DNA of 64,000 nt, taken from assembly GCF_003268635.1 (NCBI RefSeq), contig NZ_CP029639.1, positions 3,173,501 through 3,237,500 of the forward strand, written 5' to 3'. Of the stretch, positions 44,202 through 51,408 are shown in pieces; the first letter of the stretch is position 1; the number at the start of each line of letters is the position of its first letter. The position numbers and the translations under genes are program-made. The notes under the pieces were generated by a model. That model was given only the letters and a program-made list of their open reading frames with translations, was not told the origin of the DNA and made no database searches. The DNA is from Paenibacillus sp. DCT19 (GTDB lineage: Bacteria > Bacillota > Bacilli > Paenibacillales > Paenibacillaceae).

Positions 44202-45133
44202 ATGATCCAATCGTACCTAGTTCAGAGAAAGCGAAAATGGATGGTCTGGTTGTTAGCTATTGTTCTAATTATTGCTGTTCCAGTAACCATTTTCTTGAAG
44301 ATCATTATCCACTCCAATGTACCGGAGCTTGCAGAAGGCAGCATTGAGCAGCATTATGCGCAGCAGGGGAGTCATCTTGTAAAGATAGAAGAAGTGAAGA
44401 ATGCACTGGGAGAGCCTGCATATCGAATCTACTATCCCGAATTTCAAGGAGATGAGGCCTATCCTGTAATCTCTTGGGGAATGGGACAGGTGCTAATCCA
44501 GATCGTTATGATGGGCTCTTGAAGCATCTTGCTAGCTGGGGATTTGTTGTCATCGACTCCTATAGCATGACGACAGGAACAGGCCAAGAGATCGTGGAAG
44601 CGATTGATTATTTAACACAGGAGAACGAACGATCCGGCAGTATCTTTTACGAGAAAATACAAATCGAACATGTTGGTGTAGCGGGACATTCGCAAGGTTC
44701 TACGGGAGTTATTAATGCGCATACCAACTATACAAGTGGTTCACTGATCAAGACGATTGTATCTATCGCTCTTCCGGACTTGAAGCACTGTGATCCAGAA
44801 GATGTATACGACACATCGCGGATTACGGTTCCTTTCTTCATCATGGGTGGTACACGAGATTTTCTAATCTCACCTGTATCCACGAATCAATTGGCTCTAC
44901 AACATACGGACAGCAGCACAGCTGTAATGATGGGAATGGCCAAAGGCGCAGCGCATACAGCGATTGAAGGGAATGGTGGCAATCACAGAGGTTATCTGAC
45001 GGCTTGGATGAGCTATCGTCTGCTCAATGATCAGGAAGCGATGAAGGCATTTCAAGGAGAGGCTGCCGAGATGATGCATAATACCAATTGGAAACATGTT
45101 GAACAAGCGAATATGGCGGATACGTTTAAGTGA
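44202..45133 (+). pseudogene. Alpha/beta hydrolase (lipase/chlorophyllase-like), frameshifted
   Basis: It starts at the ATG at 44202 (GAGGAGG upstream) with a membrane segment (about 12-34). The first frame runs off after YPVISWG, at GGGGA (44476-44480), and the second continues NGTGANPDRYDGLLKHLASWG to 45133. The joined protein of about 310 residues has the nucleophile elbow GHSQGS, an acid in GGTRDFL and a histidine near NHRGYLT, as in dienelactone/PET-hydrolase-like secreted lipases. One base added at the G/A run would restore it. Confidence 0.8.
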
Positions 45134-47641: not shown

Positions 47642-49078
47642 ATGATAAGATGGGGAATTCTCGGCGCAGGGTATATCGCAACTCGTTTTGCCACTGCACT
47701 ACAACACGAACCTAGCAGTAAATTATATGCTATTAGTGGTCGCAGTGAATCGAAGTTAAAAGATTTTGCAGATAAGTACGCAACAGATCGACAGTATGTA
47801 TCACATGATGAGATGTTGTTAGACCCTAATGTGGATGCGATCTATCTCGCATTACCTCATCACTTGCACCATGAATGGGCAATTAAGGCGTTGCATGCAG
47901 GCAAGGCTGTGTTGTGTGAAAAGCCTGCATCGTTGAATCTGAAAGAAATGCAAGATATCGTAGAAGTGGCTAGAAGCAAAAACGTTCTCTTTATGGAAGC
48001 TATGAAACAACGCTTTGTGCCACTATACATAGATCTGCGGCGCAGAGTAGAAGCGGGTGAAATAGGAGCGATCACTTCTATACAAGCGAGCTTATGCAAC
48101 CAAATGCCTGATGGAATGAACACGTATCATGTTCAACAAGGGCCTGGAGGTTCATTGTTAGATGTAGGTACGTATTGTGCGAGTTGGATTGAGGACTTCT
48201 CGAACGGCAACATTAAACTTGAAACTGTGGCGGCATCTCAAAAAGATTCCATTGATTATTATATTGATGCCAAGCTGCATGTGGGTCATGTGAAAGCACA
48301 ATTAGAGTGTGCATTTGATCGTCAAAAGGAACGGAAAGTAGTGTTACAGGGAGAACGTGGCAGTATTATTGTCGAGGATCTCCATCGGCCTGTGAGAATG
48401 TTCATTCTTCGGGATGGATATGAACTGGAAAAGGTTGAAATCCCATATGAGTTTGATGATTTCTACAGTGAGATTCATCATTTCGTAGAATGTCTTAAGA
48501 ATGGACAGACTGAGAGCGACATCATGTCACTGACTGCTTCCCTGCGTTGTGCTGAGATTCTGGATACGATCCGTGCTGGTCTAACGTACACTCCAGAATG
48601 CTTAGACGTTTTGAAAGAACAAGAAGAAATTCTTCAATATAATCACTTCGGAGCTGCGGAAGCATTAAAGCTAGGCAATATCATTGCAGAACTTGCGAAG
48701 GAATATGATCGCGAAATTGCTGTGTCCATCATCAGAGAGAGTGACGAGCTTGTATTATTCCAATATATGATGGATAGCAAAGCTCAGAAAAATATTAGTT
48801 ACATGGAGGGCAAACGCAGAGCGGCTAAGTTAGTTGGGCACTCAAGTCTGTGGATGCATGTTGACCATGTCTTGAACAATAAATGGAATGTAGAGATGGA
48901 GAATATTCCCCATTATATTCCTTCTGGTGGAGCGTTCCCGATCCGGGTACTCAATGAGTGGGTCGCAACGCTTGCGCTAAGTGGACTGCACGAAGGTAGA
49001 GACCATGAGATTGTCGTTCGGGCTTTGAGTCAAGCGCTTGAGAAGGAAGTCTCTGTTTTTCCAAGTGCAGCAATTTGA
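47642..49078 (+). CDS. Gfo/Idh/MocA oxidoreductase fused to a UPF0303 (HbpS-like) domain
   Basis: 478 residues in two parts. Residues 1-320 are a Gfo/Idh/MocA dehydrogenase: Rossmann start WGILGAGYIATRF, the substrate/NAD lysine in CEKPASLN near 94 and the C-terminal fold with GPGGSLLDVGTYC near 168, as in trans-dihydrodiol dehydrogenase-like members. Residues 325-478 resemble UPF0303 proteins (EEILQYNHFGAAEALKLGN, KRRAAKLVGHSSLWM, GGAFPIRV, VATLALSGLHEGRDHEIVV), whose fold is that of HbpS/GlcG. These are normally separate proteins of about 160 residues. The reading frame is continuous. GGGGGA precedes the ATG. Confidence 0.82.
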   Translation: MIRWGILGAGYIATRFATALQHEPSSKLYAISGRSESKLKDFADKYATDRQYVSHDEMLLDPNVDAIYLALPHHLHHEWAIKALHAGKAVLCEKPASLNLKEMQDIVEVARSKNVLFMEAMKQRFVPLYIDLRRRVEAGEIGAITSIQASLCNQMPDGMNTYHVQQGPGGSLLDVGTYCASWIEDFSNGNIKLETVAASQKDSIDYYIDAKLHVGHVKAQLECAFDRQKERKVVLQGERGSIIVEDLHRPVRMFILRDGYELEKVEIPYEFDDFYSEIHHFVECLKNGQTESDIMSLTASLRCAEILDTIRAGLTYTPECLDVLKEQEEILQYNHFGAAEALKLGNIIAELAKEYDREIAVSIIRESDELVLFQYMMDSKAQKNISYMEGKRRAAKLVGHSSLWMHVDHVLNNKWNVEMENIPHYIPSGGAFPIRVLNEWVATLALSGLHEGRDHEIVVRALSQALEKEVSVFPSAAI

Positions 49079-49140: not shown

Positions 49141-49683
49141 TTGCAAATGAACGAAATCACAATAACGCCGCTTGTTGGGATCGGTCCTTTTCGACTAGGA
49201 ATGAGTAGGGAAGAGGTAGAGCAGAAATTTCAGGAATTGGATCATTGGAGAGCAGATGATGGCATTCCCATAAATCCAAGCTATATGGAGATGTTATTTG
49301 TCCGTGAACATTTCGAATATGATGCCGATGGTCGAGTGAAATTTATTCAACTGATCAATCCACAGTATTCGGGAGAGTTTCACGTTCCTTGCTTGTTTCA
49401 GGGTGTGGATGTATTCAAGGCGAAAGCTGAGGCGTTGATTTATTCCCTTAGGGAAGATTATCCCACGGTCGGAGATCATGATCCAAAGACAGGATTTTCC
49501 TTTGCAATTCGAGCATTGGAACTGAGCTTCTGGCGAGAAGGAATTATGAATGATGACATCTTGAGAGATCCGGAGTTTCTGGAGATGAGTGAAGAGAATC
49601 AGGAGCTTGAGAAGAGGTATTTCCATTTTACGACTATCTCGATTGGAGCACCAGGGTATTTCGAGTTTTTAGATAACGATTAG
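49141..49683 (+). CDS. Unknown soluble protein, 180 residues
   Basis: 180 residues, ATG with AAGGAG 5-6 bases upstream. The N-terminus (PLVGIGPFRLGMSREEVEQKF) resembles small SMI1/KNR4-like or DUF-type bacterial proteins that often act in toxin-immunity contexts, but no firm family is recognised. It is acidic, without signal peptide, and lies 60 bases after the fusion dehydrogenase, so cotranscription is possible. Confidence 0.6.
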   Translation: MQMNEITITPLVGIGPFRLGMSREEVEQKFQELDHWRADDGIPINPSYMEMLFVREHFEYDADGRVKFIQLINPQYSGEFHVPCLFQGVDVFKAKAEALIYSLREDYPTVGDHDPKTGFSFAIRALELSFWREGIMNDDILRDPEFLEMSEENQELEKRYFHFTTISIGAPGYFEFLDND

Positions 49684-49769
49684 TAGAAATGTGAGATTAG
49701 AGAGTGAACATCCAAAACTGAATTTACCTGATCATGATTAGAAAATGTAGACGTACAAAACAAGTGGTA

Positions 49770-49799
49770 AGGGCGTTCCAATATGGAACGCTCTTTTTG
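49770..49799 (+). terminator. Terminator after the 49.1 kb gene
   Basis: AGGGCGTTCCA pairs with TGGAACGCTCT (49770-49780 and 49784-49794), followed by T residues. Confidence 0.85.
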
Positions 49800-50143: not shown

Positions 50144-51408
50144 GTGAAAAAAGGTATTCGTTTATTATTAATTAGTTGTATTTTTGCAGCGCTGTCTATG
50201 ACTCTATCTGTTTATGCAGATGGAGGGTGAGTGCTTATTATGTCTCTCCTACGGGCAGTGATTCCAATCCGGGAACCAAACGTGAACCTTTTAAGAGTAT
50301 TATGAGGGCACAATCTGCCGTCTCTTCTGGGGATACAGTGTACATCCGAGGTGGGGTATATGATGAGTTTGACATTGCGAGAACAGGGAACAATTATAAT
50401 TACGTCCATGACATCTCGAAAAGCGGGATAACCTATGAGGCATACCCTGGGGAGAGACCTATATTTGATTTTAGACATGTACCCACGGATTTGCGCGTAG
50501 CAGCTTTTTATGTTGGTAATAGCACTACGGGCATCACATTCAAAGGCTTTGATGTTATCGGCGTCAAGGTCGGAGAACAAGCACAATCGGAAGCCTTCCA
50601 GATTAGAGGACAAGCTGATTTTATAAACATGGCTGCCCATGATAATGAAGCGATTGGCTTTTATTATACAGGGTATGGGACAGGTACGGTACTGAATTCA
50701 GACGCATATAACAACATCGGGCCAACTCCGCTATCGGCTGGAAACATAGATGGGTTTGGTGCTCACGGAGGAAATGTTTCTTTCATTAATTCCCGTGCTT
50801 GGAACAATAGTGATGATGGGTTTGACAGCATTAGTTCAAAAGGAAATGTTACCTATGATCACTGCTGGTCATTTGACCACCGGGGCAACCAGAACAAGAT
50901 CGGAGACAAGAACGGTTTCAAAGTTGGTGGCTACGCTAGAAAAACCAGCGGTTTGCCAGATCCGTTGCCAGTTCATACTGTGAAATTTTCTCTCGCTGTT
51001 AATAATGGGGCAAATGGTTTTTACGCGAACCATCAGCCTGGTCAATCGGCTATTTGGACGAACAATACAGCATACAATAACAGTAGAGCCAATTTTGATA
51101 TGTTGGAACGTGTTAGTTCGACAGATACAGCGGATATTCCGGGATATAGAGAGGTACTGCATCATAACATCGCGTTTATGGGGCAGGCGATTGTTAACGA
51201 CAATCATGCCGCGGAGAATGTAACCCATAATTCTTGGTCGATTAACGGGGGGATTGAGCTCACGGCAGATGATTTTGTCAGTCTGGATACGTCTCAGCTA
51301 TCTGCACCTAGGAAACCGGACGGTAGTTTACCAGATGTTACATTTATGAAGATTGCATCTTCTAGTCCGCTGTATGCTTATCAACTTGGGTATCTTGCTG
51401 ATAAGTAA
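50144..51408 (+). pseudogene. Secreted PL9 pectate lyase-like protein, frameshift at the signal peptide
   Basis: A GTG at 50144 with AGGAG upstream encodes a signal peptide ending about SVYADGG, but that frame stops at 50228-50230. The mature protein, beginning SAYYVSPTGSDSNPGT, continues in another frame to 51408. One more G in the run at 50225-50227 joins them, giving about 421 residues. The mature part is a right-handed parallel beta-helix; NNSDDGFDSIS and DKNGFKVGG match the calcium-binding aspartates and catalytic lysine region of family 9 pectate lyases (PelL/Pel9A). It would cleave pectate outside the cell. Confidence 0.8.

Follow-up and report, generated by a model that had tools for sequence, protein, structure and literature searches.

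In the window (the whole stretch of 64,000 nucleotides of the Paenibacillus sp. DCT19 genome that was analysed), one frame (47642-49078, + strand) encodes both a complete dehydrogenase of the Gfo/Idh/MocA (GFO) family and a UPF0303 domain (HbpS-like, PF03928), separated by some five residues. The fusion is real, old and common to many gut and soil bacteria of the Bacillota and Actinomycetota. With a probability of about 0.45, the protein is a sugar-type dehydrogenase with an attached carbonyl-ligand-binding UPF0303 domain, which would hold the substrate or product, or tune the activity to its level. The architecture is already in databases, as precomputed Pfam strings and under the JGI name "predicted dehydrogenase/uncharacterized protein (UPF0303 family)"; also known already are both families and the attachment of a C-terminal HbpS-like domain to an enzyme, as in PduO. 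No paper on a GFO-UPF0303 fusion was found by title and abstract start in a literature search that left out most subscription papers. The features of the gene and its downstream region are as follows.

47642-49078, + strand: complete fusion gene, a single intact frame of 478 codons and a stop
47645-47998, + strand: Rossmann NAD(P)-binding domain, residues 2-119 (PF01408, E 7.1e-28)
47921-47923, + strand: Lys94 of the EKP motif, presumed catalytic, present in 44/44 fused and 41/41 unfused rows
48032-48367, + strand: dehydrogenase C-terminal domain, residues 131-242 (PF22725, E 1.3e-9)
48161-48175, + strand: Asp174-Tyr178 (D-x-G-x-Y), presumed catalytic pair of the Tyr type, like that of dihydrodiol dehydrogenase and KijD10, both residues in 85/85 rows
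48578-48592, + strand: inter-domain linker, residues 313-317, between helices in the AlphaFold2 secondary structure
48602-49048, + strand: UPF0303 domain, residues 321-469 (NF002696); PF03928 covers 337-462
48812-48814, + strand: Lys391, aligned with Lys57 of the EfgA formaldehyde pocket
48980-48982, + strand: Ser447, aligned with EfgA Ser114
49001-49003, + strand: Asp454, aligned with EfgA Asp121
49147-49683, + strand: downstream gene with no Pfam match, possibly cotranscribed, also a neighbour in Root52 (L033) and G113 (L143)
49769-49795, + strand: terminator-like hairpin after the downstream gene, a pattern match only (2 in the stretch versus 1.8 expected in shuffles)

The initial annotation had described a continuous frame of 478 residues joining a dehydrogenase to UPF0303, and this was borne out: the frame is intact and its Pfam domains score above their curated cut-offs, both in the GFO part (98.2 bits for PF01408, cut-off 24; 38.6 for PF22725, cut-off 27) and in the C-domain (57.7 for PF03928, cut-off 25; profile positions 2-127 of 128). 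Its assignment of the C-terminal ~150 residues to the UPF0303 family is upheld by the PF03928 match together with a predicted fold like that of yeast Ybr137w. The C-domain misses the equivalog cut-off of NCBIfam NF002696 (82 bits versus 146), so it is a member of the wider family and not of that equivalog. AlphaFold2 prediction of the full chain from 32 sequences gives two folded domains joined by the linker (mean pLDDT 95.5, no residue below 70, whole-chain pTM 0.93).

Distribution and history of the fused gene

Both domains are detected by two profiles in 116 of the 120 best-listed proteins (the best 120 of 2528 past the threshold), and the spacing of the domain profiles differs by at most 3 residues across these 116; each of the 4 exceptions is 315-320 residues long. 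A genome scan found relatives encoded at 428 places, the best 80 comprising 42 fused and 38 unfused loci (only this split is used; the neighbour counts of the 80-locus scan were set aside, 12 of the 80 loci having been lost where the main frame apparently overlaps a longer one). The fused loci belong to Paenibacillaceae, Lachnospiraceae, Clostridiaceae and Erysipelotrichaceae and, among the Actinomycetota, to Coriobacteriaceae and Atopobiaceae. Restriction of the fusion to one assembly, a concern of the initial annotation, is contradicted by these counts. The full-length gene is rare in the genus of the window (2 of 39 genomes in the search for relatives, its own genome counted), and in a sample of the class it is found in 2 of 299 genomes, its own and G113, where the genes flanking the fusion match those in the window.

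Purifying selection acts on both halves: among seven Paenibacillaceae sequences, the 10 of 21 pairs for which both values were computable give dN/dS of 0.05-0.16 in the dehydrogenase half and 0.03-0.10 in the C-domain, with dS above 1 (saturated) in several of the 10. A frameshift, assembly or annotation artefact is ruled out by the intact full-length copies in several genera and by this selection.

Degraded copies were also observed. The genome G013, of the same genus, has fragments only, decayed remnants that match the gene start at 72% and 92% identity (L145 and L146), the latter with a C-domain piece as well. An 86-residue protein of Paenibacillus tundrae named as a heme-binding protein (P0138) has the end of the dehydrogenase part joined to the final portion of the C-domain, and is apparently what is left of the fusion after an internal deletion. 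The window copy itself has a synonymous divergence from Root52 (L033) and G113 (L143) of ~1.0-1.1 in the C-half (48614-49075) and 0.42-0.47 in the N half, the divergence between Root52 and G113 being 0.14-0.17 in both halves; this inequality points to possible recombination in the window copy.

Trees favour one old fusion followed by several clean losses of the C-domain. In the dehydrogenase tree (85 domains and six outgroup rows, the latter on very long branches), fused and unfused sequences are intermixed, with 11 changes, 6 of them forced by starred branches; a single clade of fused dehydrogenases was rejected on a quick tree (AU p 1.2e-45). In the C-domain tree, a single branch (SH-aLRT 93, unstarred) divides 44 fused domains and 13 metagenomic orphans from the 24 standalone rows chosen, and since one branch sets the fused C-domains apart, we prefer a single fusion followed by losses to fusion several times over. 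The N-terminal and C-terminal distances of the 44 fused genes are correlated (r 0.83 over 946 pairs; the best of 2000 label shuffles, which ignore relatedness, reached 0.16). No C-domain remnant was detected in the 38 unfused loci, either among frames of at least 60 aa (E <1e-4) or by tblastn with five fused C-domains (E <=1e-2), in stretches of up to 8 kb on each side, shorter at contig ends. L074 is unfused and free of such a remnant, and its nearest kin (L038, L039) are fused. Close unfused relatives might also have shown the two adjacent genes from which the fusion formed, but no such arrangement was seen at the 38 unfused loci. The 13 orphan C-domains (of 18 such metagenomic proteins) fall within the fused group, and P0122, P0123, P0125 and P0126 start at or before the linker, with no dehydrogenase; as far as their sequences go, these four are fragments or resplit genes.

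Conserved residues of the two halves

The nearest solved structure to the dehydrogenase half, by sequence and by fold, is mammalian dimeric dihydrodiol dehydrogenase (2o48, E 7.1e-37 over residues 2-315; Foldseek rank 1), and the next by fold is the sugar 3-ketoreductase KijD10. K94 and D174-x-G-x-Y178 align with both, and we take K94, D174 and Y178 to be the catalytic residues of the Gfo/Idh/MocA family. An arginine after the second strand (R34) is invariant in 32 fused sequences, that of the window included; a basic residue at this position presumably fits NADP, and the dehydrogenase is probably NADP-dependent. Of the 19 NCBIfam families listed for named GFO equivalogs (inositol, xylose and levoglucosan dehydrogenase and others), none reaches its cut-off, the window dehydrogenase being placed only as dihydrodiol-dehydrogenase-like. 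It would thus be a Tyr-type GFO enzyme of the dihydrodiol/xylose dehydrogenase and sugar-3-ketoreductase kind, with a small sugar or a related polyol or ketosugar as its likely substrate. Natural relatives in which the C-domain is deleted, such as P0012, P0016, P0063 and P0079, have 315-320 residues and are ready-made controls.

The C-domain is closest, in sequence and in fold, to yeast Ybr137w, followed by DESPIG_02683, PduOC, EfgA, HbpS, OrfY and NahX, and its predicted structure has the fold shared by Ybr137w, HbpS and OrfY. In EfgA, Lys57, Ser114 and Asp121 are reported to contact formaldehyde-derived ligands (PMC8153426). These positions were mapped to Lys391, Ser447 and Asp454 by aligning a Bacilli GlcG-type protein (L129) to EfgA (6bws) and then to the window domain, with the 6bws numbering checked by count against the EfgA mutations T60, G65, G49 and S75 (offset 20; PMC8153426 Table 1). 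All three residues are kept in 44/44 fused C-domains, and the standalone UPF0303 rows have the lysine and aspartate in 24/24 and the serine in 21/24 (alanine in 3); Lys391 is also kept in 13/13 orphans. Three GlcG-type proteins aligned have the same Lys/Ser/Asp pocket, so it marks the superfamily and not a specific ligand. K380 and H400 are more typical of the fused form, being found in 44/44 fused sequences versus 0/24 and 11/24 standalone ones, respectively.

Genomic context of fused and separate genes

The neighbourhoods of fused genes lean towards sugar metabolism: the 62 same-strand neighbour proteins include 8 GFO, 5 RpiB/LacAB, 4 RpiR-type regulator, 3 glyoxalase-fold and 2 ROK matches (3 SIS matches may be the RpiR-type proteins) and, from non-sugar families, 4 HAD, 3 methyltransferase and 2 peptidase M20, in a list of 25 of 112 families that covers fused genes only, and with 15 of 77 neighbour ORFs left out of the scan (12 under 120 aa and three of 134, 180 and 193 aa). 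No recognisable sugar operon surrounds the window gene. About 1.1 kb downstream, the window encodes a Pel9A-like right-handed beta-helix protein of the pectate-lyase type (50176-51408). An alpha/beta-hydrolase-like gene of the window (44202-45133) lies in two overlapping frames of 106 and 219 aa and looks frameshifted, its syntenic counterpart in G113 (L143:7758-8696) being one frame of 312 aa.

Separate genes of the two families adjoin in several genomes. Agrobacterium larrymoorei has overlapping UPF0303 and GFO genes (4 nt) in a sugar-acid locus with a mandelate racemase (dehydratase-family) gene beside them; Azotobacter has DeoR-GFO-UPF0303 and Vibrio has PTS-GFO-UPF0303-SIS-PfkB, each with a 4-nt overlap; in Ligilactobacillus salivarius and Lactiplantibacillus plantarum, two pairs that are not independent, IolG is followed by UPF0303; and Agrobacterium sp. 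13-2099-1-2 has GH3-UPF0303-GFO. In Rhizobium acidisoli, GFO and UPF0303 genes are immediate neighbours on opposite strands, with a separate gluconolactonase-family gene nearby. A UPF0303 gene also adjoins a GFO gene in the Bacilli genomes G199, G239 and G113 (L149, L161 and L144). The paired dehydrogenases fall into four groups: PRK11579-like (cut-off 330; Azotobacter above, Vibrio at 329.2 and G199 at 322.5 just below), IolG (L. salivarius above the cut-off), an unassigned group containing the Agrobacterium/Rhizobium pair (35% alike), and a group of ~380 residues containing G113 and Agrobacterium 13-2099-1-2 (35% alike). Because these groups differ, the GFO-UPF0303 pairing seems to have arisen repeatedly.

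Immediate adjacency is nevertheless found at a minority of the loci examined. On plasmids, a GFO gene is the immediate annotated neighbour of UPF0303 in 5 of 19 loci, on the same strand in 4, these loci having been hand-picked across genera from 60 of 80 matching PLSDB records, whose gene table is incomplete; two A. larrymoorei records, which also figure among those listed, and the Azotobacter record were found first with the fusion as query and stand outside this count. Per gene, GFO accounts for 5 of 38 immediate neighbours versus 5 of the 97 remaining genes annotated on those plasmid stretches, which indicates that UPF0303 sits in GFO-rich sugar loci and that its immediate adjacency to GFO is only modestly above the local level. 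Among 11 Bacilli loci, the window's own genome included, that have an unbroken UPF0303-type frame (L031, L144, L147, L149, L151, L152, L156, L157, L158, L160 and L161; L154, with a broken frame, was left out), an adjacent GFO gene is present in 3, of which two belong to the same genus. A strict rule of adjacency was rejected, GFO being non-adjacent in 14 of 19 plasmid and 8 of 11 Bacilli loci.

Other partners of UPF0303 were noted. In four of the 11 Bacilli loci the neighbour instead resembles the major-facilitator transporters annotated in L186 and L187, and in L147, L151, L152, L158, L186 and L187 the standalone UPF0303 gene is preceded by one for a major-facilitator transporter, in some cases with an IclR-type regulator. 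Judged by annotation in L186 and L187 and by resemblance in the others, this transporter is a second recurrent UPF0303 partner in Bacilli. On rhizobial and Agrobacterium plasmids (L185, L188, L190 and L193), UPF0303 lies near a TolB family or biopolymer transporter Tol gene, sometimes with GH3, DUF1080 or GFO genes as well. The UPF0303 sequence of L196, on a plasmid labelled Comamonas, has a tree distance of zero to its counterpart in Lactiplantibacillus plantarum (L195), and is probably mislabelled or a contaminant.

The functional link between dehydrogenase and UPF0303 suggested by the initial annotation thus gains support from the conserved fusion and from separate neighbouring genes of different GFO groups in Pseudomonadota and Bacillota. 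The check it proposed, for adjacent genes in other genomes, gives a mixed picture: there are pairs with four other GFO groups, but at the majority of the standalone UPF0303 loci examined no GFO gene adjoins. These GFO-free loci and the several clean C-domain losses oppose a strict coupling.

Possible roles of the UPF0303 domain and related systems

The best explanation is that the UPF0303 domain most likely uses the Lys391/Ser447/Asp454 pocket to bind a small carbonyl compound, which would be a substrate or product of its dehydrogenase, and that a rigid contact with the dehydrogenase would allow a reactive intermediate to be held or the activity to be tuned to its level. The initial annotation had supposed that UPF0303 perhaps acts on the product or cofactor of such dehydrogenases; the pocket shared with EfgA favours a small carbonyl ligand over the cofactor, although its presence in GlcG-type relatives means that a carbonyl ligand is not singled out for the window domain. 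EfgA, which binds formaldehyde weakly (Kd 8 mM) and acetaldehyde not at all (PMC8153426), speaks against the carbonyl ligand, as does the binding of heme or cobalamin by other members (PduOC, HbpS). Also against the explanation are the repeated loss of the C-domain, the position of the window gene outside any recognisable sugar operon, and the scarcity of adjacent GFO genes at standalone loci.

Alternatively, UPF0303 may itself be an enzyme and convert what the dehydrogenase produces (in a lactonase-, epimerase- or retro-aldol-like step, for instance, with Lys391 as Schiff base or general base), making the protein bifunctional; we consider this unlikely, yet put it ahead of the remaining alternatives. 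Consecutive pathway enzymes are commonly fused, the lysine is kept in every fused, orphan and standalone row, and the A. larrymoorei gene overlaps its GFO partner in a sugar-acid locus beside the mandelate racemase gene. HbpS-like proteins, however, are not described as sugar enzymes in the available portions of PMC8153426 and PMC4923194, R. acidisoli has a gluconolactonase-family gene of its own in addition to UPF0303 near GFO, and the domain has been lost repeatedly. It is more doubtful that UPF0303 as a whole is an unrecognised catalytic module of sugar metabolism, its invariant lysine acting on the carbonyl products of GFO enzymes, with the fusion as a bifunctional version and the separate pairs as two-subunit versions; if so, "heme-degrading" would be the wrong name for the entire UPF0303 branch. 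Ranking between these two ideas, and likewise improbable, is a mainly structural role in which the domain determines how the protein oligomerises and lends the dehydrogenase stability, no ligand being needed. Those relatives whose assembly is reported are oligomers (the EfgA tetramer, the Ybr137w decamer, and the PduOC, HbpS and OrfY octamers; PMC8153426, PMC5641545, PMC4923194), the high whole-chain pTM suggests a fixed arrangement of the predicted domains, and loss of the C-domain is tolerated; the invariance of the pocket residues in the 44 fused rows argues the other way, and pairing with separate genes would go unexplained.

Binding of heme or another tetrapyrrole, as in HbpS and PduOC, would make the dehydrogenase redox- or heme-responsive, and is distinctly unlikely. 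Pfam and NCBI call the family heme-degrading, and heme is bound by PduOC (PMC4923194) and HbpS (PMC8153426); but the nearest fold, that of Ybr137w, has Phe in place of the heme-ligating His of PduOC, tetrapyrrole binding there was judged unlikely by the PduOC authors (PMC4923194), and no heme-related family is among the 25 of 112 neighbour families listed. In our alignment of PduOC with a GlcG-type query, the match starts at chain residue 21, past the heme-ligating His18. A neutral fusion of functionally uncoupled halves accords with the many standalone UPF0303 loci that have no adjacent GFO gene and with the repeated loss of the C-domain, but is very improbable given the strong purifying selection on both halves, their conservation across two phyla and the pairs of separate genes, which involve several GFO groups.

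Bacteria and fungi both have UPF0303 proteins; these are annotated as heme-degrading, and an established chemistry for them was not found in the literature searched. Covalent linkage to a dehydrogenase makes the question of the UPF0303 ligand an ordinary enzyme assay, through NAD(P)H absorbance.

Among known systems, dihydrodiol dehydrogenase (2o48) and KijD10 (3rbv, 3rc1, 3rc2, 3rc7, 3rc9 and 3rcb) have the same GFO fold as the N-terminal part, with the EKP lysine and D-x-G-x-Y aligned at ~26-29% identity, but their matches stop at residue 314-315, where UPF0303 starts. Ybr137w (4clc, 23-26% identical to the window C-domain) is, unlike the fused domain, a stand-alone decamer, and its C-terminal end is reported to bind the co-chaperone Sgt2 (PMC5641545). 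EfgA, an HbpS-like formaldehyde sensor (6bws, 6c0z; 16-18% identical), has the equivalents of K391, S447 and D454, but is described as a stand-alone tetramer found almost exclusively in methylotrophs, where it arrests growth and modulates translation (PMC8153426); the window protein is not claimed to be an EfgA. PduO resembles the fusion as a metabolic enzyme (adenosyltransferase) with a C-terminal HbpS-like domain, and differs in that the enzyme is unrelated and the heme-binding domain is nearer to GlcG-type proteins than to the window C-domain. The separate pairs of A. larrymoorei, Azotobacter, Vibrio, Ligilactobacillus, Lactiplantibacillus and Agrobacterium sp. 13-2099-1-2 consist of the same two families, adjacent on one strand and in three cases overlapping by 4 nt, but their dehydrogenases belong to other groups (PRK11579-like, IolG and two unassigned) and the UPF0303 sequences do not group with the fused ones.
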